64,000 nt of DNA from Armillaria gallica (Eukaryota > Basidiomycota > Agaricomycetes > Agaricales > Physalacriaceae). The DNA is taken from NCBI GenBank assembly GCA_037576215.1, contig JBANDB010000010.1, positions 1,364,001 to 1,428,000 of the forward strand, written 5' to 3'. Below the pieces are notes generated by a model that did not search any database, was not told the DNA's origin, and saw nothing but the letters and a program-made list of their open reading frames with translations. The position numbers and the translations under genes are program-made. Below, piece by piece: positions 9,241 through 43,714 of this stretch (its first letter is position 1; every line of letters begins with the position of its first letter).

Positions 9241-9256
9241 CCATGCTAGTGCTATA

Positions 9257-10580: not shown

Positions 10581-10762
10581 ATTCCGATGCCCTCTTCTCT
10601 ACAGGATTCAATGGTTAGGCTATGAAGGCACCGACAAGGAATTTTCCTGGTTACCGGCCACCGAGTTCACTGCCGATGATTTCATTGAAGATTTCCACCA
10701 TCGCTATTCACACAAACCAGGACTATTAGCCAAAGTCACCATCTGCAAATCCACCATCTAAT
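10581..10762 (+). pseudogene. Gypsy chromodomain
   Basis: After a TGA at 10579 the same frame continues with a chromodomain-like segment: RIQWLGYEGTDKEFSWLPA resembles the conserved xVxWxGYxxxxxTWEP core. It ends at a stop at about 10760. Chromodomains at the integrase C-terminus define chromoviruses and help direct insertion to heterochromatin. This is the 3'-most part of the element that can be recognised. Confidence 0.7.
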
Positions 10763-19492: not shown

Positions 19493-22400
19493 ATGCCACC
19501 CATTCTGCATATTTATTCTCTTCTTCTCTTCATCGTGCTCCTCGCTGTTCATGCCGACGCTCTTCACGCCTCTTACCAACGCTCTCATGCACGTCGTTCT
19601 CTTTTGAATAAGCGGCAGATCCTTGACCTGGACATTGGTGCGTTGCTGGCCTTGTTTTCTGTTCACAATTCTCACATATACCAGGCGCCGGCACTTCCGC
19701 CAGCGACGGTACTACTAGTCAGACGTCGTCCGACTTCGTCTCTAGCATCATTCAGAGTACCGTTGGCGGCACTTCGGATACGGGCTCCAGCAGCATCAAT
19801 CTCAGTATTTTGCCTCCATCCTCGACACCCCCACCAGACACATCATCACCGTCAACAGAGGCATCAACAGTGTCGACGACTGATTCATCCACGTCGGCGA
19901 CATCGTCCGTTGATTCCGCCACCCTGACCACGGCGTCCACGACCGATTCATCGGCTTCCTCTTCCTCTACACTCAGCCAAGAAACTGCTTCTGCGACCTC
20001 GACCTCGGCCACGTCTACTGGTGAATCTTCCACGTCTTCTGATTCCAGTGTTGTCTCCACTCATACCAGTGACCTCCTTCCATCAGATACCGCCACGTCA
20101 CTGGAATCGAGCTCAACAGGCTCTACTTCATCGACTGATTCATCGCAAACATCTACCGCGGCACCCGTAACAGATTCCACGGCCTCCATCACTTCGACTG
20201 ATGTGAATTCTGCCTCCAGTACTGCCCCATCTGGAGACTCGACCACTTCATCTGTAGAATCGACCGCTACCTCTGATTTTAGTTCTGCTGTCCCTGTCAA
20301 TACGGATACATCAGCCTCGACCCCTACCGCCGCATCCACCTCTGATAGCGGAGTCACCAGCTCCGCTGACGCTTCGTCAACTGCACCAGCATCTGCGTCG
20401 TCTCCCGACAGTGGTAGCACAGCTAGTTCTCCCGATTCTGCCTCGTCGAGCGCAACACAGGCACTCCCTTCCACTTCGGATGGATCTACTTCAACCACCG
20501 CTATCGACTCGTCAACCAGTGATGTTTCGGCCTCCTCATCAACAAGCAATGCAGCGCTGACTTCTTCGGCCGATTCACCGGCATCAACTTCTTCAGATGG
20601 GAGTAGCGTCACACAGTCAAGCAGTGCAGAGGCACCAACTTCCACATCCTCAGATGGCGAGATTCCAAGTAGTGCTCCGAGTCCTTCCCAGTCATCGACA
20701 GGTTCGGATGTGTCAGTATCGACCTCAGATGCGCCGACTCCCGCGTCTTCGGACAGTGCTAGTGCTACCTTCTCTAGTCCTCCCGAGTCGACGTCCAATG
20801 CACCTGTGACTACGACGTCGGATGGGAGTTCCGTGGCGCAGAGTGGGACCGCCTCTGCTACTGATAGCATCCCAGTCACTCAGAGCGCATCACCAACCGA
20901 TAGTGCTCCGGTGACGAGTGCGACCGCCTCTGCTACTGAAAGTGTTCCCGTCACCCAGAGCGCATCACCAACCGATAGTACACCAGTCACACAAAGCGCA
21001 AGCGCCTCTACTACTGACAGTGTCCCAGTCACTCAGAGCGCATCACCAAGCGATAGTGCTCCGGTGACGCAGAGTGCGACCGCCTCTGCTACTGATAGTG
21101 TTCCCGTTACCCAGAGCGCATCACCAACCGATAGTGCACCAGTGACGCAAAGCGCAAGTGCCTCTACCACTGATAGCGTTCCAGTCACTCAGAGCGCATC
21201 CGCAACCGATAGTGCACCAGTGACACAAAGCGCCAGCGCCTCTGTCACTGAAAGTGCTTCAGCATCTGCGACGCAGACGGCAAGCGTTTCTGCCACTGAT
21301 AGTGCATCCGTCTCTCAGAGCGGAACCGCCTCTGCATCGGACAGCGTTTCAGCGACACAATCCGCGAGCGTCTCCGCTACAGATAGTGTTTCGGGGACAC
21401 AGTCCGCAAGTGTTTCTGCTACGGAGAGCGTGTCGGCCTCTCAGAGTGAAAGCGTGTCGGTCACTCAGAGCGAAAGCGTTTCTGTTACGCAGAGTGTGTC
21501 GGTTTCCCAGAGCGGTAGTGTTTCTGTTACGGAGAGTGTGTCGGTGACGCAGAGTGGTAGTGTGTCCGTTACGGAGAGCGTCTCGGCGTCCCAGACGGTA
21601 TCGGAGAGCGTTTCAGTAACACAAAGTGCCAGTGTTTCTGCTTCCGGCAGTGTATCTGTCACTCAGAGCGGCAGCGACTCTATTTCAGCATCGTCGAGTG
21701 CCAGTGCAAGCGAATCTGTATCTGCCTCGTCGACTGGTAGTGCAAGTCATTCTATCATCAGTGAGACGTACACCAACACGGCCACGTTATCGTCCTCCAC
21801 CATCACATTCCCTTCCGGCACCAGCACTCCAGAGACTGCTACCATCACCTCCTCTGTATTCAGTGTGAGCGTAACGACGACCACCGAATATCAAGTGCCA
21901 TCAGATCTCAGCTTTGTGTTGACGGCATCCTCGCTCCAGATCGACCAACCCACAACGACGTCCTCCCAGAGCTTTTCTAATCCCGACCAGGTCACTACCA
22001 GCATCCCGGATATTCAGAGTACACCTGCGACGACATTTAGCGCTGCCAGTCTCCCTACCAACCTCCCGTCGAGGATTTTCCCCAAAAACAGCATGTCAGG
22101 AGATGAGGATCTCACCGGGTATACCTTCATCAGCATCGCGTTCTCGACTGCTACGTTGGGTTGGGTTTATGTCACGCAGAATTCTCTTACATCAAGCCAA
22201 ATCCTGGCTTACACGCCTGCCATTTTAGTAAATGCGCTTGGACTAGCGAGTACGTTAATCATCTGCAATGTTCTGAACAGATGCTAACATTCATACATTC
22301 ACAGATGATCAAGTAATGTCATGGTGTCTCCAAGTCAACATTCCATCTGGATACCAGGATTCGTCCGACGCCGCCTTGTTACAGACCATGTGGACCGGGT

Positions 22401-24447: not shown

Positions 24448-25034
24448 CTAATCCATGTCATTGACATTCTCGAAAATCCAATCTTGTCCCTGACTAGCCA
24501 ATGACTAGCACCGATCTGAGCGAGAACAATCTGGGAAATGTGAGCTAAACGCAACCTAAGAAAGAGCTCGCTCACATCGTCGTTTTTGTTCACACTCCAA
24601 ACCAGGTTCGTATCGACAAGACGTATCCTGTAACAAGGCAATGTGAGTGTGAGGTAAGGCCCCTCTTCGACCCAACTCACTGGAATTTCTGGCGATCAAC
24701 CAGGTCAAGATTCCAAGAGTTAGTAACTCCCAAAGCCGCCAGCGACCTCGTCCCGATCAACTTTTGCCCAGTCTCCACCGGCCAATCCGAGCTCGCAAAT
24801 GACACACTCTTGAACAAGTTCGTCCCGGGGATCGTCTCCAAGTCCCACTACCAAAAGACTGCGTCAGAGTACAAATTAAAATTAAAAAATATTCTTCACA
24901 GTCTGATCCGCCAAATTCAATCGCGAGACCATTAAAGACGCGCCATCAGTCGAATCCCCGCCCTCGACAGTGGCCGTAGCTTCTGCCTTTGCGTTGATCA
25001 AGTGATGTGCCAGGCTCAGGGACTCCGACGTTGG
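24448..25034 (-). pseudogene. Aldos-2-ulose dehydratase, 3'-end fragment (unit 1)
   Basis: The 210 bp at 24825-25034 is nearly the same as 32114-32333 at the 3' side of the unit 2 AUD. Beyond that homology the minus strand reads on as DLETIPGTNLFKSV and AALGVTNSWNLDLVD. This matches the C-terminal domain of aldos-2-ulose dehydratase as I recall it (WNISHVPGTDMYE, AAMGLTSRWAV). After a likely intron the frame may end at the TAG at 24448. The piece stops abruptly at 25034, where P2O sequence on the other strand begins. It therefore holds only the C-terminal part, cut off from its N-terminus by a deletion, and cannot make enzyme. Confidence 0.7.
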
Positions 25035-26313
25035 CACTCGCGAGGTTCGCGGTATCCCTTTGCCACCAGACGCCGCTCCGAGAACAAGAAATTTGCTACC
25101 TGGTCTGGGTCTAACACCGTGCTCGGCGAAGATCTTTCCACAAACAAGAACCGCCGCTTCACACTCTCTCCTGAGACTAGAGTCACCCGCCTTGTCCGTG
25201 ACCCTGCCAATCCTTCCAGAATTGTAGCCGCCGTGTGTCGCAAACTCAAGACAGACCGTGATATTCTAGTCGTTGCTAAGGTTTGTCGTAATGACACTAT
25301 CAAGTATGTTATATTGACCTTACTGAATAGACTTTTGTCGTCTCCTGTGGATCGGTATGCACACCTCAAATCCTTTGGAACAGCCGCATCCGCCCGGATG
25401 CGCTGGGAAAGAATCTTACGGGACAGTCTATTTCCTTCTGCCAGGTGCGCCTGCCTGAGTCCTCTACCCTCCGTCTTACCTACTGCCTATAGATTGTCCT
25501 TAAACGATCGATCGTTGAAGCTATCAGCAATAACCCTGCCTACAAGGACCTTGTCACTGAGCACCGCGAAAGCACCCCAACGACCCTTTGCCAATCCCGT
25601 TCGACGACCCCGAACCACAAGTAACCATTCCGTACTCCTCCAAGCACCCATGGCACACTCAGATCCACCGTGATGCGTTCTCGTACGGCGACGTCGGCCC
25701 TCGGTCCGACCCCCGCGTTGTAGTAGATTTACGCTTCTTTGGTAAATCCGACATCGTCGAGGAAAACCTAGCGACGACCACACCGATATCTATGGCTTGC
25801 CACAACCGACTTTCTCTGTCAAGCGCTCTCGAGAGGATGGAGAGCGTGACCACAGGTAAGTCTCCTAAGTCCATATACCCCGCCGCTAATGCTCGTTATC
25901 TTCACTGGACAGAATGATGCAAGACATGACCAGCATCGCTAACATCCTGACTCCTGGGTGGATATCTTCCCGGGTCTGAGCCTCAATTCATGGAGACTGG
26001 TCTTGCCTTGCGCATCACTGTACTAAGCTCATTCCTATTCGCTGTTGCTCGTAGCTCACCCTCCTCCTTTCAGGGTACCACTCGTATCAGTAATGACCCC
26101 AAGACGTCGGTCGCCGATCCCTCCTCCAAGGTACACGGCTTCAACAACCTCTGGGTTGGCGGTAACGGGTGTATCCCGGACTCGACCTCATGCAACCCTA
26201 CTCTCACCAGTGTAAGCACCCACAGCTCAATTTCAGGTCACGGTCGCTGATTTCCTTGCCAGCTTACTATCGCTATCAAGGGTGCCGAGTCTCTTGTTAC
26301 ATATCCGAAGTAA
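25035..26313 (+). pseudogene. Pyranose 2-oxidase, 5'-truncated copy (unit 1)
   Basis: This copy corresponds to the part of the unit 2 P2O gene from 37685 to 38960, starting mid-exon at RRRSENKKFATWSGSNTVLG. Exon-intron structure is the same (introns at 25281-25330 and 25445-25492, then three near 25857, 26030 and 26210). Recognisable strings include [39 protein letters not shown] and [15 protein letters not shown]. The FAD-binding N-terminus and flavinylation site are missing. Lesions are a 1-nt deletion near 25571, a 7-bp insertion near 25950, and the out-of-frame join after EEN that is shared with unit 2. It is the downstream partner of the AUD fragment across the deletion junction. Confidence 0.9.
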
Positions 26314-28344
26314 AACCACATTCAATTTTATATCGCTTGCTTGATCGTGTAGTTCATATTCTGTGGTAACTGGTTGATCGTGATTGGTCTGCTCCGGGTC
26401 CGAGTACTGTGAGAACAGTATCTGTTATCCATTCTCTTGGTCAAGCGTCTGTTTATCCAGAATGCATAAAGGATATGTGGGAATAAAGTGCATAGTAATC
26501 TCACCTTTGCGGATTGCAGGATGAGTCAGGAATGGTGATGTAGGGTATGGCGAAGGGACGCCGCCCTGTGACCAGCCCATGAGCGAGTGGAGCGGATCAA
26601 AATGCTTTGCCTTTCTTGACCGGACATCTAACTTATTTCTTTCAAAGCGTCTCAGCCAAATTTCTCCCCGTAACAAGGCTATCAAGAATGCAACAATAAC
26701 AAAACCTTCAAGGACTAATAGCGCTATGCTTCACTTGTGTCTTTGCTGAACTTCCTCTCAATCGTCTGGGTGCACCATTTCAAAGCTTTCTGCTACCCTA
26801 CGGCGTGTCTGGGGAGAGTGTACGTGGAGCCGATAAAAGCGCAAGACTCATGAGTACAAGGCTGCCTCACACCCGGCGCCTTCTAATGCTCCTGCCCTAG
26901 CCTACTAGTATTCTATCTTGATTTCGCCTCGAAGCTGAACAGAAATCTTATCTTGGCTGTCAATCTCATTTAAGCTGGAGTGTATTCTCTGTGAGGTCAT
27001 AAACGCCCTTGGCTACTGGCCGACTCATTCTAGAACCCACATAGCTCACGAAGGAGGGGATGCCCAGAGTTGAAACAGAGTCCGAGTCCGATGCTCCTCC
27101 GACTGCATTGTAGAGATCTTAGACAGATCCTGATTAATTGTCGGGCATTCCGTTCGAACGATGAAAAGACGCCAGTTGATGATGATGTAGCACGAGCAGG
27201 CAGTCCTTTCATATTACTGCGAAAGTGTATGCTGTATCCGGATTTCGAAGCTGCTTTGAACACCTGGCCTTCCTTACGAGATTCTTGAAATTGTCTGTCC
27301 GGAAGCCTGAAGGCCTATCATCCTGTGTTCCTCCTTCTGAACAGACCCCCGGCTTGACCTGGATCATTGATCCCTTAGCTCATCGGCTACCTCGTTGAAT
27401 GACCAGTTTATGCCACTTGGAAGGCATCACGAAAGCTAGGAACATGTTGAGGGAGTGCGTAGTAGCAAACACCATGAATTTATAGTACAACCCCAGGTGC
27501 AAAGGGAGTCTGTACCAATCTTGAAGAAGACGGTCCTACAGCTAAACCTGCTAGTTCGGCATCTTTCAAAATCATCAACTCGAGTCAATATAGTTACGTG
27601 GTCTATATACCCTTTGTTGGTAATGAGCATTCACTGTCTAAGCGGCACTAAGTAGTGGCTGCTCTGGTATCGATCCGTCTCCACACGAACTGGCACCGCC
27701 AAGTCAATAGGTCGACTGCCATAGACTAAGACAAAACATTATTCGGTGATTACCGTTTTTCTCTTTTCCCTCCTTGAAACGCTAGAACTATCATTAGCGC
27801 TTTGTTATGGAACTGAAAAAGGCAAATTCATGATTGTCTGTGTCAAACTATGTGATGCGTCCCTTAGTATCCCCACGAATTCGGATGTCATCATCCTCCG
27901 GTATTGACGTTGGTGCCGGCGGCATTGAGGCTCACGCCTAAAATAAATGGCCATGAGGTACAGGCTCAGGAACTGAGGCTTGAGGAGGACCACTCGTTGC
28001 ATACGGCGCTTGGGCATATGGCACCCAGACTTGGTAGGACGGGAGAGAAGGAAGTCCTCCCATGCACGCAAAAATAGGATAACTACTATTGAAAACTTCT
28101 AGTCTAGGTATCTACGTGAATTCTGATGACAGACGGAATGGTTACGAAGAAGGATACGATTCACATTACTTAGGTCTGGCGATCGCGTACTCTGGAATAG
28201 GAACTGGCGACAAAGGTTCGAGGCAACGCAGTTCGAGTCATGACTTTCCGCGTCCAAAGGATCAGGGTTGACCGTGCGTAAACTTTGTTATTCTCTACTG
28301 ATCAATTATGAATGAATTGAAGAACAGGTGGGCAACAGCTTGGC
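26314..28344. other. Duplicated intergenic spacer (unit 1)
   Basis: About 2 kb of non-coding DNA between the P2O remnant and the 213-aa gene. It is matched over most of its length by 38961-40997. No gene was recognised in either copy. Confidence 0.6.
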
Positions 28345-29041
28345 TTACACCTGGCAGTCATCGCCGCCGGAACAACGGCAAAGAGGCCTTGAAGCTTCCC
28401 GTCCGTTGTAATTCATCGTCAGGCCACTACACCTGCGCGCCACCGCGTCGCGCAGTTTTCCTTCCCGATCCTGGATAATCACGATCTAGGCAGGAATTTT
28501 CCGTCAAAAGGTGATGCACCTGTAAGCCGTAAGATCGTACCTCCATACTGTTCTTCAAGGCGTTGATTTCTTGTCGATAACGATACGCATTGATCCAGAT
28601 GTATTTTTCCTGGCACAGGTAGAAGACAAGAGAATCACAGCTCGTTAAAGATAGCCTTTGGTCATCGAGGAGCGCACGCTCGAGTGCGCACGTATCCGCT
28701 TCCAGGCTGCGATATATATCGATGAGTGTCCGGTGAATATGGGTTTCCGATATATACCGTAATAATTGGATGTTGATATCCGCCGCATTCGCCAGTAGTA
28801 AGAGGCCGTGCTCTTGAAATAGGGCAATGGCCTCTTTGACGGTTCCTCTGAGTTGTATGACGAGACCCTTTGGACTCATAGGGGGGAGGAATGGATATAC
28901 CCAGAATCGGAAGAACAAACCCGCGCATACGAAGATGGACAGGCCCGAGCCCCATGTGGAAGGTAGAAGAGAGATGAGAGAGATGCTAGCCTCCGGGGTG
29001 ACTTTAATTGGTGCCATGTTGAGTTGAACATCCAGGTTCAT
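28345..29041 (-). CDS. 213-aa protein with N-terminal membrane segment, copy A
   Basis: Two exons (29041-28541 and 28485-28345) with a 55-nt GT-AG intron encode 213 aa. The family was not recognised. Residues about 18-50 are hydrophobic and aromatic (for example WGSGLSIFVCAGLFFRFWVY), suggesting one membrane anchor. The remainder is mostly helical-looking (RGTVKEAIALFQEHG, LEADTCALERALLDDQRLS), and the C-terminus after the splice is Cys-rich (RRCSGL, RPLCRCSGGDDCQV). Splicing is supported because both duplicated copies open the same frame through the same junction with an identical exon length. Copy B lies at 40998-41695. Unlike its neighbours P2O and VPS74 in this unit, it has no stop or frameshift. 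Confidence 0.65.
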
Positions 29042-30986
29042 TGCTTCCTGCTATTTAACAGACACTCACGACTAACATATTGCAGGTGGAGCGCCAGTTT
29101 CGTGATTTTCAGGGAAATGAAGTCCTCGCAGCATGAGAAGACAAGATATTAAACATTGTGGACATTAAACATGGTGGATATTCAAGCATGGTGCAAGTGA
29201 CCGGGGCATTCCGCCTGGAACCAGTGCGCGAAGTCGTTTCAGTGGATGCCAGTCCAGACAAGGCAGACAAGAGCATTCAATTCGTTGCGGCAGTCTGCGG
29301 TTGTGCGTCATAGTGAGTTCTTTTCCATTTCTTCAGGTCACTTACTGGCACAGATATCTGCTCGTCTGAAAAAGAGAACCCATCACCCAGATCCAAGCAG
29401 CATTTAATTTTAGCTCAGAATCGTTGGAACTGCCACAGTTACAATGTTGTTTTCATCTCGCATGTTCTATACGAGCGATACTGTAGCGCCTTTTACCAAC
29501 TTGGAGCTGGAGTAGTGCCATAGACTACTATCCTGGGAGGCTGTAGAAACGCGCTGTAGAGTCTGGACTCTTGAGCGCCTGTATGATAAGAATCCCCACA
29601 GACAGTGTGCGTGAAAAGGTCCGATGATGCTGGAGGTCTAAGGAATATACCGAGCGGCGAAGCATACGATAATAGCAATACCGAATTTTTGGGCTTGAAG
29701 ATGGTGGTAGTGTCGTGGTTTGTGTGTGTACCGGTGCAAGAACCCAATCATGAACGGCCGGGTCCACAGCCCTGACAGGCCAAGTGATGTGCTGTGGCCA
29801 TAAAGGCTCATATTGTTGTGATCGCACGGTTGCATACGTCTCGCGGAGTAGAGACACTTCGTGGGGTACATTGAGAGGGAATCAGCATAATCGATCAGTG
29901 CTTTTTTCCGTGAACAGGGACTGGCAACGACTGAATGCGGGTGGAAGGTGGTGGTCGACGAACTTGGCGATGTGATTCATGTGAGCGTGTTCAGAGACAC
30001 GAAACATCAACGAATAGCACAGACTTGGTCCAATATGTCTATCGCGGATTGAGTCATATTATTCTGTCTAATTAGTCTCCACATCGACAGACGACCAACA
30101 CCAGGAGAGATTGACGGATACGGGACGGGAAAGTAAACAACGGATTCGTGGACTTGCACGCATTTGTTACTTTGGCGTGGTAATGGTCTTTGAATGTTTA
30201 TATTTACGTGACAGCGCTGATATCATCGTGACGACGGGAGGCAGAGGCGATACACAAAAACCACCAGCAGGAAGGGATGTGAACCTGCTGGACTCGTTTT
30301 CATCAATGCGGTAATCCCATCGATGTCCCGCCGTAGGCGGAAAAAACAAGACAGATATGGGACACATGCACGGACGACAATCAAATGCGACCAACATCAC
30401 GATACGACAGACTTGGAGTGACAGGATGGGACATAGGCAACGAAACAACGAAGATCACAGAAAAAAAAGCGATAGAACAATAGGAAGGGGGATGGCAGGC
30501 AGTGTTACATATAAAATCACAAAACGCACGTGTAGGGCAACTGCAAGCAACACAGTCCACTTTTTTGTATGACAAACAGTAGGCTTCAACCTTATGACAG
30601 CTGACAGAACACAAAATTTGGTGGCCATGGTGAAAAAGATATTTTGTCAGGGAAAATGCAGCGACCAGTTAGAGTCCAAGGCTAAAAGACATGGATGAAG
30701 CTGCAGGGGAAGCCAATGGTAGAGCGTGACTGGGGACGTCAACTGCCAGCCTAGGTTTCGAGTTCGGCAAACACATAATTCTGCCCAAATTTGTTTGCAT
30801 GGAAATATAAATCCAGATCTGAGAGCTGTCATCGAATGTAAGTCGTAGAATGAGAAGAATAGGATGGCCTTGAAGAATTCGAAGCCATCAAAATGATGTC
30901 TCGTGATCAAGATGAACTGCCGCAGGGCTGCGCTTCAGCCTCTTTTCGTTCAAGACACACCTTTTTACCCTTTCCTCCAAAATCTC
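29042..30986. other. Spacer between the 213-aa gene and the VPS74 pseudogene (unit 1)
   Basis: The two outer parts match unit 2 (41700-42531). The middle, 29702-30876, has no counterpart there. It is bounded in this unit by the direct repeat cttgaaga (29694-29701 and 30869-30876), so unit 2 probably lost it by repeat-mediated deletion. No gene was recognised. Confidence 0.55.
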
Positions 30987-32111
30987 ATGGCGTCAGGCCT
31001 GTCGAGACGACGAGTAGCGGCCTCGTCGTCGTCAACGTCGCTCTCGTCACCCACTCCGTCCTCGACCAATAGCGCCGGCGGCACACTCAAATACCAATGT
31101 AAACGGCGGCGGACACGCAGGCTCAGCATTCGAAGGCGGCACCAGGATCGCATACGACCCACGAGATCTCGCAAGTGCAGATTCTGAGCAGCAGCCGAAA
31201 CTGACCTTGATGGAAGAGGTTCTGTTGCTGGGCATCAAGGACAAGCAAGGGTACCTCTCTTTTTGGAACGACAATATTTCGTATGCCCTTCCCGGCTGTA
31301 TACTCCTCGAACTCGCTCTGCGACGACGTATACTGCTCGTCAATGATCCGAACCGTCGCCATCTGTCCCTTGCAGAGCGCCTGGTCGAGGTGCGAAGTGA
31401 GAAACTCACCAGCGAGACTATTCTCGACGAGACGCTGAGAATGATGAAGTCCCAGGAATCTTTCGAAAGATTGAGCGTTGGCAGCTGGATTGATTTGTTA
31501 TCTGGTGCGTGGCGTCACGAACTATGAAATACACATCATCATATATTTCTATACAGGCGAGACGTGGAACGTCCTAAAAATTGGTTTCCAGCTTAGACTC
31601 GAACCAGTCTCACCGCCAGTTGATGACAATCGATCAACTCGGGCAGGCGGATGTCGACTGTCATCAACCGAAGTGGGGACTGGCTCGAGTCTATTTCCAG
31701 CTCAAGCAGGTCCGAGAGCGCCTTGCCAAGGGCCTGTCGACAAGGGTGTCCTCCGCACTGAGAAGCGCAACTTTCTCCTGTTTGAGATGGTGACTCACCC
31801 AGTCGCTGACGTGCGCACGAAGGAATCCATCATCACTCGTGTCGTTTCTCTCCTTACCGCCACCACGTCGACTGTACCTCCAGAAGCCCTAGGGAAGGAA
31901 GAAGCTGTCAAAGAGCATACAGCGCGCGCCGTTTGTCTCGTCTGCGCAGCTTATACCGCCAGCGTCCTCGACAATGCATTCGGCAGGCTTGGATACGAGG
32001 AGCGTGAGGGTGCGTTCCAGCAATGCGACGAGATACTTGCAGAGTTTAGTGTCTGGCCGTTTGGATCAGAGAGTGGGCTGGGGAACGCGAGTAATTCCAG
32101 GAGAAGGAACA
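30987..32111 (+). pseudogene. VPS74/GOLPH3 homologue, broken and 3'-truncated copy (unit 1)
   Basis: It matches 42532-43556 closely. The start ATG and N-terminal exon are present, but two bases are missing near 31086, shifting frame after SSTNSAGGTL. Further on, the GPP34 strings LTLMEEVLLLGIKDKQGYLSFWN and FGRLGYEERE remain. The second exon is split by a 100-bp MITE at 31594-31693. The copy ends at about 32111, where AUD sequence on the opposite strand begins, so the last 50 or so codons are lost. It is not expected to give functional protein; the intact copy is at 42532-43714. Confidence 0.92.
31594..31693. mobile_element. 100-bp foldback MITE with perfect 9-bp target duplication
   Basis: The insertion is absent from the unit 2 VPS74 gene. 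It is flanked by tttccagct at 31585-31593 and 31694-31702. It begins TAGACTCGAACCAGTC and its reverse complement begins TAGACTCGAGCCAGTC. The similarity continues inward, so about 31 of the outer 41 positions pair and nearly the whole element is one inverted repeat. Nine-base duplications are typical of Mutator-like transposases. Confidence 0.85.
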
Positions 32112-32113
32112 GA

Positions 32114-34960
32114 TGTGTACAAGTTCGTCCAGGGATCGTCTCCAAGTCCCACTACCAAACTGCAGAGTACAAACTTAAATGTGAAAATATTCCTCACAGT
32201 CTGATCCACCAAGTTCGATCTCGAGACCATTAAAGACGCGCCATCAGTCGAATCCCCGCCCTCGACAGTGGCCGTAGCTTCTACCTTTGCATTGATCAAG
32301 CGATATGTGCTCGACTCAGGGACTCCGATGTTGGCCTCCTTTGCCAGTGAAATAAAAGGCGGAAATTCTAACGCTACCCAAACATCAAACTTCTGTTTGT
32401 CGGGGTCACCGTTTCCCACGATCCACGCTAAAAGGGTCAAAACTGTCAGAAAGATAGAATTACACAATTGTCGAGCTCACCATGCCATGGGTAATCCACT
32501 GTTCCATTATCCCTGAACCGCGGCATCCCGTCCACAGTTGTCCTCCACAACGGTCCATGTTCTGACATGCTCGGTACCACCACACCTGAATATGCGCTCT
32601 TATCCGGATTTGCAGGATCAAAATCTCCATCCGCAACGGTTGCCCAACTCATCCCTCCCTCGCCCGTACCATTCACAATACACGCATGAATCTCCAAGAA
32701 AATTTGCCCGGTGTGATTGTGGAATCCAGCAGAGACGTTCACCCCAGCAGTCCAAAGCTGGATGTGGCAAATAGGCTCATCAGAGTCATCTGCATAGCGG
32801 ACATGGAAGCGGACAGGCAATATTCGATCAATTGATAAAGCACTGACCTTAAATCTTCCATTATCCCAAGGCGTATCTTCTACTTTGACCCAAGGGAATG
32901 TCGTATGATGCACTGCGCTTGGGAAACGAAGAGGGAATAGGTTATGTGCACAAAGCTGATTCATATCAGTGAAAAGCGGCTGGCCTGAAGTGGTGGACTT
33001 TTCAAAGAGGACAAACACCGCGCCTTCGTACGAGTGGATATAGTACCGTCTTCTGCTTTGATAGTGATGGTGCTCGCCTCAAAAGGAGCTGGCGCCTGAG
33101 TGCGTTCGTGTAGCTTGCCATCCTTGTCTGGCCAGATAACTAAGCCAGCATCAGATCTGAACTAAAGGATGCTATGGATAATCATCTCGTCCAGCAATGA
33201 CCTTGACACCATCTCCTTGCTTCACTGGATACCGGGGAGGAACAACAACAAGAGCCATTTTCTGGCCGACTACATCTGGAAATTCTACCTTATCCACCAT
33301 ACGGATCGCATCAGGACGAAGCACGCCGAATAAGATTTCGTCGTTGAGTTTTTCAGCGGTGATAGGTGCAGCTTCATATAATAGTACGAGCGGGATGGGA
33401 GACTCGAAGTATCCGGGGACCGAGTAGGAGACCGTTGCAAAATCCTAGATTTCATCTGTACTTCAATAACAATCACGACGATTATCAGAAACAACTGACA
33501 AGGACATGGGGTGATCGATAATTTCCTCTGGCGACTCTCCCGGCAGAGACATCACCGAGTTTGAACTTGGCGAACTTGCCATTTTTGAGATCAACGGCTG
33601 GAGCGTCCTCAGGGAATGGGTAGAGCAAAAATAGAGATAAAAGGACATACGTTTATAGCACCATACGCCTGTTCTTTCCCATGAAGGAGGCTTGGAGCCC
33701 ATCACTACCAGGAATTCGTCAACGCCATCACCATCAATGTCAGCGCACACGACTTGGTGGATGACCCCCGGGGCTGGCCAGTGCCCGGTGAAGTAAAGTC
33801 ATCGAGGACGTGACGAGTCCACCGAACACCGGCAACCTGATTTGGGAGTGTATCCTCGTCCTTCACATAGACCGTGACATGATTACCATGCATTGCCTGT
33901 TAGTCGTGTATGTTTAGAGAACCGATGAATGGTACAGATCATTTACCTCGGATGAAGCGATGTATCCCGCACAATCATCGTGAACCTTTCCAACACCGAC
34001 TAAAGTAGGTCAGCGTCTGCGGTGGTATAAAGTCACAAAAGGCATACCACTGCCAGAACCCTAGAACCGATTGCCTGGAATTTGAGAAAGATATATAACG
34101 TACCGACGACTTCGTGAACTACGCGGAAGTTGGAATTGAAAGGAATCTCCTTTTCCCACCCTGAGGCTGACATGGGATCATCTGGTTTTGTGTAAATAAT
34201 GACGGGAACTGGGGTATCGAGATCATTGGACTTGGTGATGACAGGGAGAGCAGCAATCTGGATCACATCTGTTCGAGTGAAGTGTCTCACTGAGTCGAGT
34301 TGAACTTATTCAGCTTTATCATAGCAATAGCTGGGTATGGCCCTAACCTCTAAGACGGTGCATTCCGGGGCTCTGACCAATGTACCGAGGCTGCCACTGC
34401 TCCTTCCTGGGTCTCCAATGTTTTCGAATCGTTGGATGCGACCTCCGTCAGACCATATGTCATCCATAGAGGGCCCGTAGCGATCCGCGATGATAACTGA
34501 ACGACAGGATCAGACGAGCGTCAAGGACGACAAAGCGAGAACACAAACCGCCGTTGTAGCCATTTCCGCTGATATCAGCAAAACTATACCGGAAATCAGC
34601 AGGCGTATTTAAGAAAAAGACAGAGCCAGACGAACGCCATAGTCACAGGGAACCAAAGTGAAGCGAGGGTCACCTTCTCCCAACCTCCCATACTTTGCTT
34701 GTGCAATCTATGAAACGGCCGAGTCAGCTCTATGCACAAGTTTAGCAACAAAAGGATACCAACGTGTTCTCCGGATGGTACTGGTTGTGGAATATTGTAA
34801 TATCGCTTTTTCGTTCCTTGGTACCAAGACCGTAGGCGATAACGCTGGGATGCAGGTCGTCATTGGCGCAGTGGAACGGGAATTTCTCTATCCAGTATCT
34901 GTCCTCGATGGCGTCAATGATACATGGAAAGAAAGAATGCATGTCAGAGTAAGGGATGCT
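32114..34960 (-). pseudogene. Aldos-2-ulose dehydratase homologue, 3'-truncated and frameshifted (unit 2)
   Basis: The minus strand encodes, over about ten exons, a protein closely following aldos-2-ulose dehydratase. An N-terminal FG-GAP/VCBS beta-propeller contains YGLGTKERKSDI, SMDDIWSDGGR, HFTRTDVIQIAALP and HQVVCADIDGDGVDEFLVV. Then come SVPGYFESPIPLVLLYE and the cupin-like part with AHNLFPLRFP, HIQLWTAGVNVSAGFHNH and EHGPLWRT, and finally FDVWVALEFP. The enzyme dehydrates 2-keto-glucose (dicarbonyl sugars made by P2O) on the way to cortalcerone. Damage: single-base frame shifts near 33046 and 34407, loss of about 45 residues near 34040-34110, and truncation at 32114, where the broken VPS74 copy begins. 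The exact start exon was not resolved. The AUD 3' end survives separately at 24448-25034. Confidence 0.85.
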
Positions 34961-35040
34961 TGTATTGCTGACGGTCGCTCTTTAATATATAGACTGCAGT
35001 TCTGATGACAAGACGCCTTAACGAGGTATTGAATCCAAAG

Positions 35041-36640
35041 TTAGATATTGTGGAAGTCGAGATCACAATAGGATCTGCTATTGCGCTGCAAGTCATGCTG
35101 AATGACAACTCCAGTCAAGTTGAAGATGGATTTGAAAGAACCCGCAAACCAAGGACGTCCGATCTTTAATATTTTGTCGACAAATGATGATAGATGGTTT
35201 GATGAATGTCTTGTAGAGTCTTCTGTCGCGTTTAAGTAGAAGCTTGGAAGTGTTTCATAGGATAAGAAGTTGACGACAGACAGCAAGCTGTATTGAAGAT
35301 AATTTTGGGTTGTATTCCGGGTTGCCACAGTAAAACTTTGAACACGTACTTCAAGATGAATAAGCTCAGTACTATCACAGTAAATTAACCGTTCCCAAGA
35401 CGTTTTGAAGGAATGTATAGCTCAATTTGAATAATACACCGAATACATCGGTGCAGTTACCTGTTTCAATATAGCAGACAAGCAGTATTGTGCAGACGAA
35501 CCGGATGCGTAAAATTGACTTGTGAGAGCGTGAATTGAATGAATCGGTCTTTGAATCTCGCCATCGGACTCCACACCGAGAAGATGAACAGTTTCTGGCA
35601 TAACTGAAACATTTCGCGAACGAAGCCTCCGAAGGATCAAGAAACCTCTGAATACCAACTGAATCCTGTGTAAAACCAGACAGAGATTATTTAATCTCTC
35701 GAGAGTAGGATTCCAGAGTAAAATTCCGACTTCTCTCTGGCAATCAAGCTCTCGAGACTCGAATGGGCCGGGTGGGCGGGTTGAAAATCGGTAGTGATGG
35801 CAGACAATGAGACGCGTGGCGATTGACCGTGACGCGATCATCCAAGGTTAGTCAGCATCTTGCACTCTGACGTCCATGTCCAAAGTTAATTCAGCATGTT
35901 GAGTCAATATTTAATGCTGAATGATGCCAAGATTGTTATATCGGGCTGACCAGTTTCTCCTTGTCTTTTCTCCACGAATGGATAATGATAGCTTGCATAA
36001 ATTCACCTGCCATCATTTCTTGCGAAGTATCGACACGCAAAATTCTTGGGAGCATCAAATCGAGGCCCTCATGTGCGGCTTGAGGAAGCATTCTTCGAAG
36101 GATATCTGTTGTCCCTTGGATCATCGACGGTCGAATGATACTGCTGGTAGAGTCTAGATTCGGAGACAACGAAGTTGCGAGATCATTTGTCTGTTGCCTT
36201 CGAAAACAATTTAGAAGGTGAGTATGTCGTCTTCAAGACTTCATGAATATCGTCTGAAAGCTTCTCATTCCTGTCATTAATTTCAGAGCATTCGATCCAT
36301 CGGTACGTCTTTACCGCGGACACATGAACTCGCCCTAGGACCCAAACCTCTGGCCTCATTGATGTTGTGCTGTTACGCCTTATATTCAACGGTATCTGAT
36401 TTGAGAGGACTCACAAGTTCCCACAAACTATTTCTACCATATATATACATCATACCGACGACCCATATGGTATTGTTCGGTATGTATACCTCCCCTCTTC
36501 CCCGGGGTAACCACGACGATCCACTTGTAATAGGAGATTCATGTGGCTCCAGTTCAACCTGTCCATCGACCCACTGTACCCAGGCTACTGTGATGTGCCA
36601 AAATCTCATAAACAGCAGCGAAATATCGACAATCATGTCC
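35041..36640 (-). other. Unclassified open segments between AUD and P2O
   Basis: Several minus-strand frames in the region between AUD and P2O look partly protein-like: 36636-36373 (EVYIPNNTIWVVGMMYIYGR), 36389-36183 (WVLGRVHVSAVKTYRWIE), 36169-35936 (GTTDILRRMLPQAAHEGLDL), 35841-35422 and 35328-35041 (RNTTQNYLQYSLLSVVNFL). They could be exons of one decayed gene of about 1.6 kb, but joining them needs guesses and no family was recognised. It may equally be ordinary intergenic DNA between divergent promoters. Confidence 0.25.
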
Positions 36641-36880
36641 GCAAAAATTGACTGTCATGTAAATGAATCCAAAGTCTTGATTTATTTATTCTTCTTGTAC
36701 AAAGATGCAAGCTAGTATCACGCTGACATCCGCTATCCACGGTGCTACGTCAGAAACTGACCATCTGGACATGTACGACTCACATCCTCAGCTTCAGTAA
36801 ATTTGGGACAACCGCCATATAACCAGCCTGAAATCTCCCTCCAGGCCTCACCCACTCTTATCCATCCTTCCGTACTCGCA

Positions 36881-38960
36881 ATGTCTCCATTTCGCTTATC
36901 TGAAGAAGCCGTCCAGAGTCTACTCGCTCATGTAGCGAGAGGGATGCATGCTGCTCCTTCAGATGATACTCCCCTCATCAGAACGGATGTCTTCATCGCC
37001 GGCAGTGGCCCTATCGGCCCGACCTACGCCCATATCATCATCGACCAAAATCCTAACGCCACTGTGCTGATGGCAGACGTTGGTGTTCAGGAAGATGTGG
37101 TTATTGGCGCTTACCAGAAAAATGCAGTCAAGTACGTCGCTTTTTTATCGTCGTTTGGATCACTATATTAATTGGTTTCTCAGGTTCCAAAAGGATATTG
37201 ACTCGTTTGGTATGTACAAAGCTCCTTGGGTATATTCAATAACTTCTCGTGCCATCTACAGTATACACCATCAAGGGTGCTCTTCAAGCCACGTCTGTCC
37301 CAATGCCCGCCTCGTATCTTCCCACCCTTCCAGTCGTTTCCTGGGCTCCAGTTGATACTGATATTCTTGTCATCATTGGGTTCAATCCCAAACAACAAGT
37401 CTCTACTGATCTTCCTGCTTGCGCCGTCACGCGCGCTGTCGGCGGGATGGCTACTCACTGGGCTTGTGCTTGTCGTATGTGCTTCACTCATTCTTGTCCT
37501 ACCCTTCTCAATTCTCATCAGCTGAGCCACACGCCGAAGAGAGGAAAGAAAACCCGATCAATCAAAGGGAACTCGATACTCTTCTACAACGCGGAAAGGC
37601 CCTCCTTGATGTCAATGGGGACCAGTTCGACGAGTCTATCCGCCACAGTGTCGTCAAGAGCACTCTCGCTGACGTGCTGAAGGGCACTCGCGAGGTCCGC
37701 AGTATCCCTTTGGCCGCCAGACGCCGCTCCGAGAACAAGAAATTTGCTACCTGGTCTGGGTCTAACACCGTGCTCGGCGAAGATCTTTCCACAAACAAGA
37801 ACCGCCGCTTCACTCTCTCCTGAGACTAGAGTCACCCGCCTTGTCCGTGACCCTGCCAATCCTTCCAGAATTGTAGCCGCCGTGTGTCGCAACCTCAAGA
37901 CAGACCGTGATATTCTAGTCGTTGCTAAGGTTTGTCGTAATAATACTATCAAGTATGTTATATTGACCTTACTGAATAGACTTTTGTCATCGCCTGTGGA
38001 TCGGTATGCACACCTCAAATCCTTTGGAACAGCCGCATCCGCCCGGATGTGCTGGGAAAGAATCTTATGGAACAGTCTATTGCCTTCTGCCAGGTGTGTC
38101 TGTCTGATTCCTCTACCCTCCGTCTTACCTACTGCCTATAGATTGTCCTCAAACGATCGATCGTTGAAGCTATCAGCAATAACCCTGCCTACAAGGACCT
38201 TGTCACTGAGCACCGCGAAAAGCACCCCAACGACCCTTTGCCAATCCTGTTCGACGATCCCGAACCACAAGTGACCATTCCATACTCCTCCGAGCACCCA
38301 TGGCACACCCAGATCCACCGTGATGCGTTCTCGTATGGTGACGTCGGCCCTCGGTCCGACCCCCGCGTTGTAGTAGATTTACGCTTCTTTAAATAAATCC
38401 GACATCGTCGAGGAAAACCTAGCGACGACCACACCGATATCTATGGCTTGCCACAACCGACTTTCTCTGTCAAGCGCTCTCGAGAGGATGGAGAGCGTGA
38501 CCACAGGTAAGTCTCCTAAGTCCTTCCATACACCTCACCGCTAATGCTCATTATCTTCACTGGACAGAATCATGCAAGACATGACCAGCATCGCTAACAT
38601 CCTGGGTGGATATCTTCCCGGGTCTGAGCCTCAATTCATGGAGGCCGGTCTTGCCTTGCACATCACTGTACTAAGCTTATTCCTATTCGCTCTTGCTCTT
38701 AGCTCACCCTCTCTCTCTTAGGGTACCACTCGTATCGACAATGACCCCAAGACGTCGGTCGCCGATCCCTCCTCCAAGGTGCACGGCTTAAGCAACTTCT
38801 GGGTTGGCGGCAACGGGTGTATCCCGGACTCGACCTCATGCAACCCTACTCTCACCAGTGTAAGCATCACAGCTCAATTTTGGGTCTCGTTCGCTGACTC
38901 CCTTGCCAGGTTGCTATCGCTATCAAGGGTGCCGAGTATCTTGTTGCATATCTGAAGTAA
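36881..38960 (+). pseudogene. p2ox: Pyranose 2-oxidase, full length but frameshifted (unit 2)
   Basis: P2O oxidises aldopyranoses at C2 to keto sugars with release of peroxide and is the source of substrate for AUD. Exons: 36881-37131, 37184-37209, 37262-37474, 37522-37929, 37980-38093, 38142 to about 38505, then three more to the TAA at 38958-38960. DVFIAGSGPIGPTYA is the FAD Rossmann motif. GGMATHWACAC holds the His that links covalently to [18 protein letters not shown] is the substrate-domain signature. LALHIT and CNPTLTS carry the catalytic His and Asn. Lesions: a 2-bp deletion near 37811 (compare 25160), an extra base making TAA at 38394-38396, and a shared out-of-frame join after IVEEN at about 38420 where about ten bases seem lost. 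AUD lies divergently upstream. Confidence 0.92.
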
Positions 38961-40997
38961 AACCGTATTAAGTTTCATATCGCTCGCTTGATCGTGTAGT
39001 TCATATTCTGTGGTGACTGCCAGTGGTTGATTATGATCAGTTTGGTCTGCTCTGGGTCCAAGTACCATGAGAACAGTTCTGTCGTTGATTCTTTTAGTCA
39101 AGTGTCTATTTATCTAGAATGCATCAGTGATATGTGGGAATAAAGTGCATAGTAATCTCACCTTCAAGAATGGTGGTGTAGGGTAGAGCGAAGGGACGTG
39201 GCCCGGTGACCAGCCCATGAGCGAGCGTCTAAGCGGGGAAATTGCGGGGAAAGAAAGTTCTGGCCGGCGCGAATCAAATTGATCTGCCTTTCTTGACTGG
39301 TCATCTAACTTACTTATTTTTTTCCAAAGCGCCTCGGTCAAATTTACCTCCGTAACATGCTATAAAGAAGACACTAACGATCAAACTTTCAAGGCGTAGT
39401 GATGCTATGCTTTACTTGCGTCTTTGCTGAACTGCCTGAACTCGTTCTTCTCAATTGTCCGTGTGCATTATTTCAAAGCCTTCTGCTACCCGACAGCGCC
39501 AGGTCTATGTCTGGGGAGAGTGCATATGGAGCCTTAAATGCGCAGGATGCATGAGTATATCGCTTCCTCACACGTAACGCCTTCTTACGCTCCCACCCTA
39601 CCCTACTGGTATTCTGTCTTGATTTCGCCTCGAAGCTGAACAGAAATCTTATCTTGGCAGTCAATCTCATTTAAGCTGGAGTGTATTCTCTGTGAGGTCA
39701 TAAACGCCCTTGGCTACTCGCTGACTCATTCTAGGACCCATGTAGCAGGGGATCACCCAGAGTTGAAACAGACTCCGAGTCCGATGCTCCTCCGACTGCA
39801 TTGTAGAGATCTTAAATAGATCCTGATTAATTGTCTGGCATTCCGTTCGAACGATGAAAGAGCACCAATTGATGATGATGTAGCGCGAGCAGGCAGTCCT
39901 TTCATATTACTGCGAAAGTGTATGCTGTATCCGGGCTTCGAAGCTTCTTTGAACACCTGGCCTTCTTTACGAGATTCTTGAAATTGTCTGTCTGGAAGCC
40001 TGAAGGCCTATCATCCTGTGTTCTTCCTTCTGAACAGACGCCCGGCTTGACTGGATCATTGATCCCTTAGCTCATCGGTTGCCTCGTTGAATGGGCAATT
40101 TATGCCACTTGGAAGGCATCACGAAAGCTAGGAACATGTTGAGGGAGCGCGTAGTAGCAAACACCATGAATTTATAGTACAACCGCAGGTGCAAAGGGAG
40201 TCTGTACCAATCTTGAAGAAGACGGTCCCGCATCTGAACCTGCTAGTTTGGCATCTTTCAAAATCATCAGCTCAGGTCAATATAGTTACGTGGTCTATAT
40301 ACCCTTTGTTGGTAATGAGCATTCACCGTCTAAGCGGCACTAAGTAGTGGCTGCTCCAGTATCGATCCGTCTCCACACGAACTGGCATCGCCAAGTCAAT
40401 AGGTCGACTGCCATAGAGTTGGACAAAACATCATTCGGCGATTACCTTTTTTCTCTTTCTCCTCTTTGAAACGCTAGAACTATCACTAGCGCTTTGTTAT
40501 GGAACTGAAAAAGGCGAATTCATGCTTGTCTGTGTCAAACTATGCGATATTCCCTACTATCCCCACGAATTCGGACGTCATCATCCGGTATTGACGTTGG
40601 CGCCTGCGGCGCCTAAAATAAGTAGCCATGAGGTACAGGCTCAGTAACTGAGGCCTGAGGACCACTCTTGCCGTTGCGTACGGCGCTTAAGTATATGACT
40701 TCATTCCCTCCCGTCCTACTAATTCTGGATGTCTTTCCGTGCATGCGATAATAGGATATGAAAGCTTCTAGTCTACGTTTCTACGTGAATTCGGAATGAT
40801 AGTCGGGATGATTACGAAGAAGGATATATACGATTTACATTATTTAGGTCTGGCTATTGCTTACTCTGGAATAGGAACTGGCGACAAGGGTTCGAAGAAA
40901 CGCGTCCAAAGGATCAGTCATTGACTGTGCGTAAGTCTTGTTATTCTCTGCTGATCAATTTCGAATGAATTGGAGAACAGGTGGGCAACAGCTTGAC
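38961..40997. other. Duplicated intergenic spacer (unit 2)
   Basis: Non-coding DNA matching 26314-28344, with small indels. No gene was recognised. Confidence 0.6.
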
Positions 40998-41695
40998 TTA
41001 CACCTGGCAGTCATCGCCGCCGGAACAACGGCAAAGAGGCCTTGAAGCTTCCCGTCCGTTGTAATTCATCGTCAGGCCACTACACCTGCGTGCCACCGCG
41101 TCACGCAGCTTTCCCTCCCGGTCCTGGATAATCACGATCTAGGCAGTAACTTTTCCGTCAAAAGGTGGTGCAGCTGTATGCTGTGAGATCATACCTCCAT
41201 CCTGTTCTTCAATGCGCAGATTTTTCGTCGATACCGGTACGCATTGATCCAGATGTACTTTTCTTGGCGGAGGTAGAAGACAAGAGAATCACAGCTCGTC
41301 AAGGATAGCCTTTGGTCGTCGAGGAGCGCACGCTCGAGTGCGCACGTATCCGCTTCCAAGCTACGAAATATATCGATGAGTGTCCAGTAAATATAGTTTT
41401 CCGATCTATACCGTATTAATTGGATGTTGATATCCGTCGCATTCGCAAGTAGTAAGCGGCCGTGCTCTTGAAATAGGGCAGTGGCCTCTTCGACGGTTCC
41501 TCGAAGTTGTATGACGAGACCCTTTGGACTCATCGGGGGGAGGCATGGATATACCCAGAATCGGAAGCACCAAACCGCGCATGCGAAGGCGGACAGGCCA
41601 GAGCCCCATGTGGAAATTAGAAGAGAGAAGAGAGAGATGCTAGACTCCGGGGTGACTTTGATTGGTGCCATGTTAAGTTGAACATCCGGGTTCAT
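40998..41695 (-). CDS. 213-aa protein with N-terminal membrane segment, copy B
   Basis: Two exons (41695-41195 and 41138-40998), with exon lengths identical to copy A (501 and 141 nt) and a 56-nt intron. The N-terminal hydrophobic segment is retained although its residues changed (WGSGLSAFACAVWCFRFWVY). The central helix-like part is almost unchanged (LEADTCALERALLDDQRLS), as is the Cys-rich end. By my alignment about 27 of the first 167 residues differ from copy A, with no indel. The function is unknown. It sits between P2O and VPS74 on the opposite strand to both, so it shares its 5' side with VPS74. Confidence 0.65.
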
Positions 41696-42531
41696 TACTT
41701 CCTGCTATTTAACAGATACTCACGGCTAAAATATTGCAGGTGGAGCGCCAGTTTCGTGATTTCCAGGGAAATGAAGACCTCGCAGCATGAGAAGACAAGA
41801 TATTATTTGCTATTAAATCATGAGGTTCTCGAAAAAGAAAAAATGCGACGTGCAGCCTGATCTTTGCCTGATCTTCAGCCTGTACGATCTGAGACAACCC
41901 ACGAAACTCATGACGTCGATCGTCATAGCGGCCTCTGAATGCCGGCTCAGAGGTCTTTAAGCGGGGCCCTGGGTCGTTACCAGTTCGGACAAGGCAGATA
42001 AGAATATCCAATTCGTCGAGGCTGTCTACGGCTATACGTCGCGGTGAGTTATTCGCCATGTCTCTGGGCCATTCTATCTACTTACTGACACGCATATCTG
42101 CTGGTATATCGACAAGCTCGGACGTGTAATTTTAATTCGGAACCATCGGAACCACCACAGCTGCAATGTTGTTTTCATCTCGCAGGTTCCGTACGAGCGA
42201 TACTGTGGACGCGTTACCAACTCGAAGTAGGAGTATTTCCAACGACTACTATCCTGGGAGGGAGGCTGTTCAACTTCTTGAAACCAGCTGTAGAGTATGG
42301 ATTCTTAGGCGCCTGTATGATACGAATCTGCACAGAAAGAGTACACGAAAAGATCCGATGAAGCTAAGGAATATTTAGTAGCGTAGCATACGACAATAAC
42401 GATTGGACTTGCAATTGAAGAATTCGAAGCCATCAAAGTGATGTCTCGTGATCAAGATGAACTGCCGCAGGGCTGCGCTTCAGCCTCCTTTTGTTCAAGA
42501 CACACCTTTTTACCCTTTCCTCTAAAATCTC

Positions 42532-43714
42532 ATGGCGTCAGGCCTGTCGAGACGACGAGTAGCGGCCTCGTCGTCGTCAACGTCGCTCTCGTCACCCACC
42601 CCCTCCTCGACCAATAGCGCCGGCGGCACACTCTCAAATACCAATGTAAATGGTGGCGGACACGCAGGCTCAGCATTCGAAGGCGGCACCAGGATCGCAT
42701 ACGACCCACGAGATCTCGCGAGTGCAGATTCTGAGCAGCAGCCGAAACTGACCTTGATGGAAGAGGTTCTGTTGCTGGGCATCAAGGACAAGCAAGGGTA
42801 CCTCTCTTTTTGGAACGACAATATTTCGTATGCCCTTCGTGGCTGTATACTCCTCGAACTCGCTCTGCGACGACGTATACTGCTCGTCAATGACCCAAAC
42901 CGTCGCCATCTTCCCCTTGCAGAGCGCCTGGTAGAGGTGCGAAGTGATAAGCTCACCGGCGAGACTATTCTCGACGAGACGCTGAGAATGATGAAGTCCC
43001 AGGAATCTGTTGAGAGATTGAGCGTTGGTAGCTGGATTGATTTATTATCTGGTGCGTGGCGTCACGAACTATAAAATACACATCATCATATATCTTCATA
43101 CAGGCGAGACGTGGAACGTCCTAAAAATTGGTTTCCAGCTCAAGCAGGTCCGAGAGCGCCTTGCCAAGGGCCTTGTCGACAAGGGTGTCCTCCGCACCGA
43201 GAAGCGCAATTTTCTCCTGTTTGACATGGCAACTCACCCAGTCGCTGACGTGCGCACGAAGGAATCCATCATCACCCGTGTTGTTTCTCTCCTTACCGCC
43301 ACCACGTCGACTGTACCTCCAGAAGCCCTAGGGAAGGAAGAGGCCGTCAAAGAGCGTACAGCGCGCGCCGTTTGTCTCGTCTGCGCAGCTTATACCGCCA
43401 GCGTGCTTGACAATGCATTCGGCAGGCTTGGATACGAGGAGCGTGAGGGTGCATTCCAGCGATGCGACGAGATACTCGCAGAGTTCAGTGTCTGGCCGTT
43501 TGGATCAGAGAGTGGGCTGGGGAACGCGAGTAATTCCAGGAGAAGGAACAGGATTGCCGAGGGCAGCAGGGCTGATGGTAGAGAAGCTGTCATTGGCTTG
43601 GTTAGTCAAGTCAAGCGTGAGGCTGGGGGTCCGTCGGGGGAAGGGGAAGATACCACATTTGAGCTCGTCGCGGCCGTGCTGGATGTCCTCGCCAAGCTGG
43701 ACTCGTTGATATGA
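42532..43714 (+). CDS. VPS74: Vps74/GOLPH3 Golgi phosphoprotein (GPP34 family)
   Basis: Two exons (42532-43051 and 43104-43714) with a 52-nt intron encode 376 aa. Vps74 is a PI4P-binding peripheral Golgi protein that retains glycosyltransferases by contacting their tails. The N-terminus is a disordered Ser-rich stretch with SRRRVAAS, the arginine motif that contacts coatomer. The GPP34 domain starts with IAYDPRD and LTLMEEVLLLGIKDKQGYLSFWN. It continues with LRGCILLELALRRRI, SWIDLLSGETWN, LKQVRERLAKGLVDKGVLRT and FLLFDMATHP, all near-invariant in the family. The intron falls inside SG-ETWN and splicing restores it. The second exon has a longer C-terminal insert (Gly/Arg-rich, about residues 318-355) than yeast Vps74. 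This is the intact copy; a broken one lies at 30987-32111. Confidence 0.96.

Follow-up and report, generated by a model that had tools for sequence, protein, structure and literature searches.

Here we report that a 64,000-nucleotide stretch of Armillaria gallica DNA (contig JBANDB010000010.1, positions 1,364,001 to 1,428,000; this whole stretch is hereafter called the window) very probably holds a redundant, paralogous pair of pyranose 2-oxidase (P2O) and aldos-2-ulose dehydratase (AUD) genes that has turned into pseudogenes, and that a second pair, located on contig C21 of the same genome, is unbroken. The two enzymes are together thought to convert glucose into an antibiotic, and the original prediction, made from the letters of the window, had taken the damage as a sign that the glucose to cortalcerone route was recently lost in this lineage or strain. 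Given the unbroken C21 pair the route need not be lost, and the tempting step from a broken pair in one window to a missing route, which the former does not imply, is corrected here.

Broken P2O and AUD copies in the window

The P2O and AUD pieces of the window are the two units of one direct tandem segmental duplication (self-BLAST and global alignment of unit A against unit B), and are arranged as follows:

24811-32112, no strand assigned: unit A of the tandem segmental duplication (self-BLAST, global alignment with unit B)
32116-43551, no strand assigned: unit B of the tandem segmental duplication (self-BLAST, global alignment with unit A)
34942 to 32116, minus strand: AUD-B (spliced alignment)
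36881-38960, plus strand: P2O-B, full length, nine exons (spliced alignment)
24451-25039, minus strand: AUD-A, the C-terminal end of AUD (about residues 742-876 of 876), two frame breaks (spliced alignment to the protein P0121, tblastn)
25033-26313, plus strand: P2O-A, the 3' part of a P2O gene, four frame breaks (spliced alignment)

The identity of the genes, as originally proposed, is borne out by matches to solved structures and Pfam domains: a single P2O-B exon matched the solved P2O 4mif (E 2e-25), a single AUD-B exon matched both the solved AUD 4a7k (E 1.6e-65) and AUDH_Cupin (PF18637, E 1.7e-57), and a second AUD-B exon matched AUDH_beta_propeller (PF22301, E 1.3e-16). By sequence the window copies thus fall in the same family as the solved P2O structures 4mif and 1tt0, from which they differ in being broken (the C21 copy is not); likewise, the window AUD has the propeller and AUDH cupin of 4a7k (P0150, from Phanerochaete/Phanerodontia chrysosporium), but AUD-B is truncated with frame breaks and AUD-A represents only the last part. 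The head-to-head placement of AUD-B and P2O-B was also correctly described; the two genes are separated by 1938 bp.

Lesions were called with our own protein-to-DNA aligner, in which introns of 38-180 bp (GT-AG, with some GC-AG allowed) cost less than frame breaks, and which therefore leans towards intact genes; the counts were repeated with seven references per gene, the C21 pair serving as a control by the same method. Many of the interruptions apparent by eye are ordinary introns (about 45-60 bp), and we ruled out that introns alone lie behind the apparent breaks, since even this intron-favouring aligner still required frame breaks in the window. In P2O-B they number three (near 37815, 38391 and 38419), a count obtained with six of the seven references (one break plus a stop with P0017). 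P2O-A covers only residues 207-548 of a 548-residue reference and carries four breaks (three with four of the references, four with the other three). Four breaks were found in AUD-B with all seven references (near 34407, 34101, 33776 and 33029), in addition to a stop near 34063 (five of seven); the break near 34101 and this stop are less certain than the three remaining breaks, since the alignment is poor around residues 210-260. The AUD-B breaks affect the propeller and the vicinity of the cupin region, the propeller has two gaps of 18 residues each, and the C-terminus is missing, cut at the duplication joint. The same method returned no breaks and no stops in the C21 AUD with any of the seven references, and none in the C21 P2O with six of them. 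The prediction that all four copies or pieces in the window are broken thus stands with introns allowed for; its treatment of them as separate copies does not, since they belong to one tandem segmental duplication.

The P2O-B translation contains GSGP, GGMATHW and [12 protein letters not shown]; the strings GGMATHW (which we take to be the site of the flavin-linking His), HITGTTR and SCNPTLT (the last two presumably bearing, in HITGTTR and CNPTLT, the catalytic His and Asn) are all present, but in different frames. A loss of the catalytic residue (GTTR in place of the GTHR of Trametes) was considered and ruled out, as the aligned 4mif also reads GTTR. Neither P2O-A nor P2O-B has the continuous reading frame of a P2O (AA3_4), and, as far as their sequences tell, they are pseudogenes of this family and not working members of it. 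In the case of AUD, a continuous frame with a complete C-terminus is likewise lacking (AUD-B is broken, AUD-A a fragment).

An unbroken pair on contig C21

The genome to which the window belongs (86,048,263 bases in 28 contigs) was searched with one P2O query (P0005) and one AUD query (P0124). The former gave 13 matches (eight in the window, four at C21:648800-650803 and one short C21 fragment) and the latter 20 (ten in the window, ten on C21), which together mark one further P2O-AUD locus (C21:643892-650899) with a spacing of 1496 bp between the genes:

C21, 647291 to 643892: AUD, 874 amino acids, head to head with the C21 P2O, no frame breaks and no stops
C21, 648788 to 650899: P2O, 572 amino acids, head to head with the C21 AUD, no frameshift or stop

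The C21 AUD is 97.0% identical (848/874) to an A. gallica protein and the C21 P2O 94.6% identical to an A. nabsnona protein. The latter gene retains GGMATHW, HITGTTR and CNPTLT, and its product covers residues 43 to 564 against the solved P2O 4mif in three stretches (E 9e-124). That the route has been lost in the strain, as all four broken window pieces might at first suggest, is consequently very improbable: the C21 locus found by the search of its own genome is a head-to-head pair free of breaks and stops, with the P2O strings and the 4mif match retained, and may be the carrier of the function.

Equally improbable, in our judgement, is that errors of assembly or base calling account for the breaks and that the living strain has intact genes in the window. 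Several of the P2O breaks are indeed short indels, and the sequence is known from the assembly alone; the same assembly, however, is free of breaks over the 874 + 572 residues at C21, some defects in the window are large (5.3 kb deleted, a C-terminus and propeller residues missing), and the duplication joint and probably some of the breaks are also found in A. gallica protein models.

The physical pairing of the two genes, predicted for the window, is thus real and recurs on C21. It has already been described in print: neighbouring P2O and pyranosone dehydratase (AUD) genes are reported from Phlebiopsis gigantea and other wood-decay fungi in the accessible portion of PMC4256170, where the pair is, as here, a pair of neighbours and is not described as broken, whereas here one of two pairs is duplicated and decaying. 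In our own protein search with AUD-B, 15 of the 45 matches lay on contigs equal in size to that of a listed same-species P2O match (two being the extra pieces P0155 and P0158); equal contig size is only a proxy for neighbourhood, although three such contigs are shorter than 70 kb and the A. gallica locus tags are consecutive (1076420, 1076421). The distribution of P2O is patchy, and the gene was apparently lost in many fungi, according to PMC6509819. Among the open-licence papers listed by our literature searches, none was seen to deal with decay of the P2O-AUD pair, and the portion of PMC7368018 that was accessible makes no mention of it. The present case is one of ordinary, well-documented paralog death.

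When 30 kb around the C21 pair was compared with the window by blastn, all matches fell inside the two genes, and the nearest C21 frame with a Pfam match, among the three frames scanned, encodes an M28 peptidase. A lone P2O exon fragment of about 35 codons, possibly the fossil of another copy, was noticed at C21:639540-639644, on the opposite strand and about 9 kb from the C21 P2O.

Paralogy and tandem duplication in Armillaria

Of 7995 candidates scored against the typed P2O-B protein, 523 reached E <= 0.001 (120 of them listed, the best nine being from Armillaria), and a search with the typed AUD-B protein found 45, of which the best eight are from Armillaria. The P2O tree was built from 32 rows (29 of the 120 listed matches, the two window copies and C21) and has an Armillaria clade of 14 rows (support 100/100; P0068 included). 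Within it, clade 1 (eight rows, 100/100) unites the window copies with sequences of A. gallica, A. luteobubalina (two), A. fumosa, A. mellea and A. nabsnona, clade 2 (five rows, 100/100) unites C21 with A. nabsnona, A. mellea, A. luteobubalina and P0068, and A. ostoyae P0005 stands apart from both. The AUD tree (29 rows: 26 of the 45 matches, the two window pieces and C21) splits in a similar manner, with 11 rows in the window clade (100/100) and five in that of C21 (100/99, including A. ostoyae P0126); the position of AUD-A in it says little, since AUD-A fills only 15% of the columns. On the evidence of these sequence trees, the window pair is an older paralog of the C21 pair, each clade spanning several species. 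In line with this, P2O-B differs from the C21 P2O by a dS of 1.67 (dN/dS 0.13) and AUD-B from the C21 AUD by a dS of 1.93 (dN/dS 0.10), and as the synonymous sites between the window and C21 genes are saturated, the paralogs are old and remained under selection for a long time.

The tandem duplication also involves a gene for GPP34 (Golgi phosphoprotein 3), and the remaining features of its two units are:

42532-43714, plus strand: GPP34 gene, copy B, an open frame with one intron (Pfam PF05719 on two open reading frames)
30987-32112, plus strand: GPP34, copy A (self-BLAST, comparison with the copy-B model)
29660-30868, no strand assigned: stretch present only in unit A (a gap of about 1.2 kb in the alignment of unit B)

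Unit B runs from AUD-B (minus strand) through P2O-B (plus strand) and about 3.5 kb of other sequence to the GPP34 gene, and unit A from the AUD 3' end through the P2O 3' part and downstream sequence to a GPP34 copy cut at 32112. The two meet at a joint at 32112/32116, and no A/B similarity was detected by self-BLAST (E 1e-5) outside 24811-32112 and 32116-43551. Unit A has no equivalent of about 32338-37683 (roughly 5.3 kb) and is thus without the body of AUD and the 5' part of P2O; the scar joins the AUD-A end to P2O-A, and by eye both of its sides share the 3 bp GGC.

A. gallica has a comparable locus (ARMGADRAFT_1076416, 1076420 and 1076421, corresponding to P0155, P0123 and P0003), in which two AUD pieces and one P2O carry near-consecutive locus tags and lie on contigs of equal size; the comparison rests on protein models. 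The end of the AUD piece P0123 matches antisense GPP34 of the window (32251-31907; copy B 43489-43346), the arrangement also seen at the joint 32112/32116. As this AUD-GPP34 joint is common to both, the tandem duplication would predate their split. Copy A of A. gallica differs in retaining more of the AUD body than unit A, with breaks that are partly different, and, as P0155 keeps AUD body absent from unit A, the 5.3 kb deletion would be younger, or at least not shared. When aligned to P0003, the P2O-B breaks near 37815 and 38391 become spanned by introns, as if P0003 had been modelled so as to skirt those defects, and these two breaks are probably shared with A. gallica. The A. gallica P2O joins P2O-B and not P2O-A in the tree (92/83, below the 95/80 mark).

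We propose that the pair would have been duplicated before the sampled Armillaria species diverged, giving rise to clade 1 (window) and clade 2 (C21), and that a GPP34 gene would have become illegitimately joined to the 3' end of the AUD of clade 1 in an ancestor that the strain shares with A. gallica. This event would have generated a tandem duplication of about 11.4 kb, cutting off the C-terminus of AUD-B and the 3' end of GPP34-A. Frame breaks would then have accumulated in both units, and unit A would have lost about 5.3 kb, comprising the body of AUD and the 5' part of P2O, at the 3 bp of shared sequence.

To gauge damage in other species, stretches unlike the C21 proteins were counted in 14 P2O and 16 AUD models (leaving the variable P2O N-terminal part uncounted). 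The clade-1 P2O models had one (P0001, P0002), two (P0004, one being a missing N-terminus), four (P0003), five (P0006) and six (P0087, one terminal) such stretches; in clade 2 there were none in P0007 and P0008, P0009 was unlike at its ends only, and P0005 had none beyond the variable part. The nine clade-1 AUD models ranged from one (P0121 of A. novae-zelandiae, which looks whole) to eight (P0123, P0155), and include three short models (P0156, P0158 and P0159, 400-423 amino acids); those of the C21 clade had none (P0124, P0126), one (P0128) or two (P0127). The measure is noisy, since outgroup models also score (P2O: one in P0017 and P0034, two in P0033, four in P0061; AUD: three to five in three outgroups). 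These counts suggest that clade-1 genes are decaying across the genus, and the public models P0003, P0006, P0087, P0123 and P0155 look as if pseudogenes had been annotated with the help of spurious introns; entries of this kind would swell any tally of these oxidases. Hence the idea of a decay that is only recent or strain-specific is contradicted by the joint and probably two P2O-B breaks shared with A. gallica, and by the damaged look of models from other species.

Selection, possible exchange between copies and neighbouring sequence

P2O-A and P2O-B differ by 15 synonymous and 26 non-synonymous changes (dN/dS 0.53), and the contrast with the values of either copy against C21 (0.11-0.13) points to relaxed constraint on the window copies. 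For AUD-A against AUD-B a dN/dS of 0.46 (100 codons, dS 0.87) was set aside, because the aligned rows extend beyond the shared 230 bp into unrelated sequence.

Several observations weigh against a plain history of gene death. The exons of P2O-A and P2O-B (96.2% identical, 973/1011) are more alike than their introns (90.4%, 234/259; p 0.0003) and 3' flank (86.6%, 251/290), and the synonymous changes are in marginal excess (15/41, p 0.047, uncorrected for a transition bias in which 32 of the 41 changes are transitions); the copies may therefore have kept some constraint after duplication. The dN/dS values against C21 depend on saturated dS (1.7-2.0). With the reference P0017, the C21 P2O itself shows one frame break, and P2O-B only one plus a stop. 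The AUD-A breaks were found with only three of the seven references (three from Armillaria, giving two, two and one), the other four having negative scores and being uninformative. The two A. gallica AUD pieces (P0123 and P0155) group together (100/99) and not one with each window unit, which a simple history without exchange does not predict. Finally, the breaks are read from assembled sequence, and unusual splicing or assembly error may formally account for them.

The likeness of the exons could also signify continued transcription of the broken P2O-B or AUD-B, with a residual role (as a truncated protein or a regulatory RNA). We regard this as very unlikely, given that dN/dS reaches 0.53, that AUD-B is without its C-terminus and has breaks both in its propeller and close to the cupin region, and that the breaks partly differ between the copies and from A. 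gallica.

Identity between P2O-A and P2O-B declines from 5' to 3' (p 0.010 when the first shared exon is set against the last two; p 0.051 for introns 1-3 compared with 4-5). Early constraint followed by none, or exchange between the copies, would both fit the divergence of the two copies as a whole. The longest identical run (130 bp) was rejected as proof of gene conversion, since shuffles attain it in 12%. The break near 38419, common to P2O-A and P2O-B, is still called with P0003, which keeps VTFSDDH there; conversely, by eye AUD-B lacks an odd stretch present in both P0123 and P0155. Such lesions, found in both copies of a genome and absent from the other genome, point to exchange, and suggest that it may have taken place between dead copies. 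A wider reading, which we offer tentatively and hold to be somewhat doubtful, is that one of two anciently duplicated pairs would be dying independently and in parallel across Armillaria, exchange between tandem dead copies spreading lesions in the A. gallica lineage (concerted decay); if such genus-wide parallel decay were borne out on DNA, the locus would be a natural experiment on the death of a redundant two-gene cluster.

Beyond the P2O and AUD genes, the units are 89.3% identical (2207/2471) in the stretch after the 3' flank and 96.1% (1089/1133) in the GPP34 part. About 170 bp within 29660-30868 recurs across the genome (at least 47 matches listed, itself included, with 40 of 151 candidates scored), and this stretch is probably a repeat element that entered unit A once the duplication had taken place. 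Compared with the copy-B model, GPP34-A has two frame breaks (near 31086 and 31734, the latter hinging on the treatment of the extra sequence), about 100 bp of extra sequence near 31594-31694 and a missing 3' end; six possible introns preserve the open frame of GPP34-B, and self-alignment of the model is no independent test. One frame of GPP34-A continues into antisense AUD.

To the left of the locus, a retrotransposon occupies 8175-10581 of the window (reverse transcriptase and RNase H domains at 8175-9050; an integrase-like frame, by eye, at 9730-10581). An 886-amino-acid Ser/Thr-rich open frame with tandem repeats lies at 19627-22287, and the next frame has, by eye, a membrane-like stretch.

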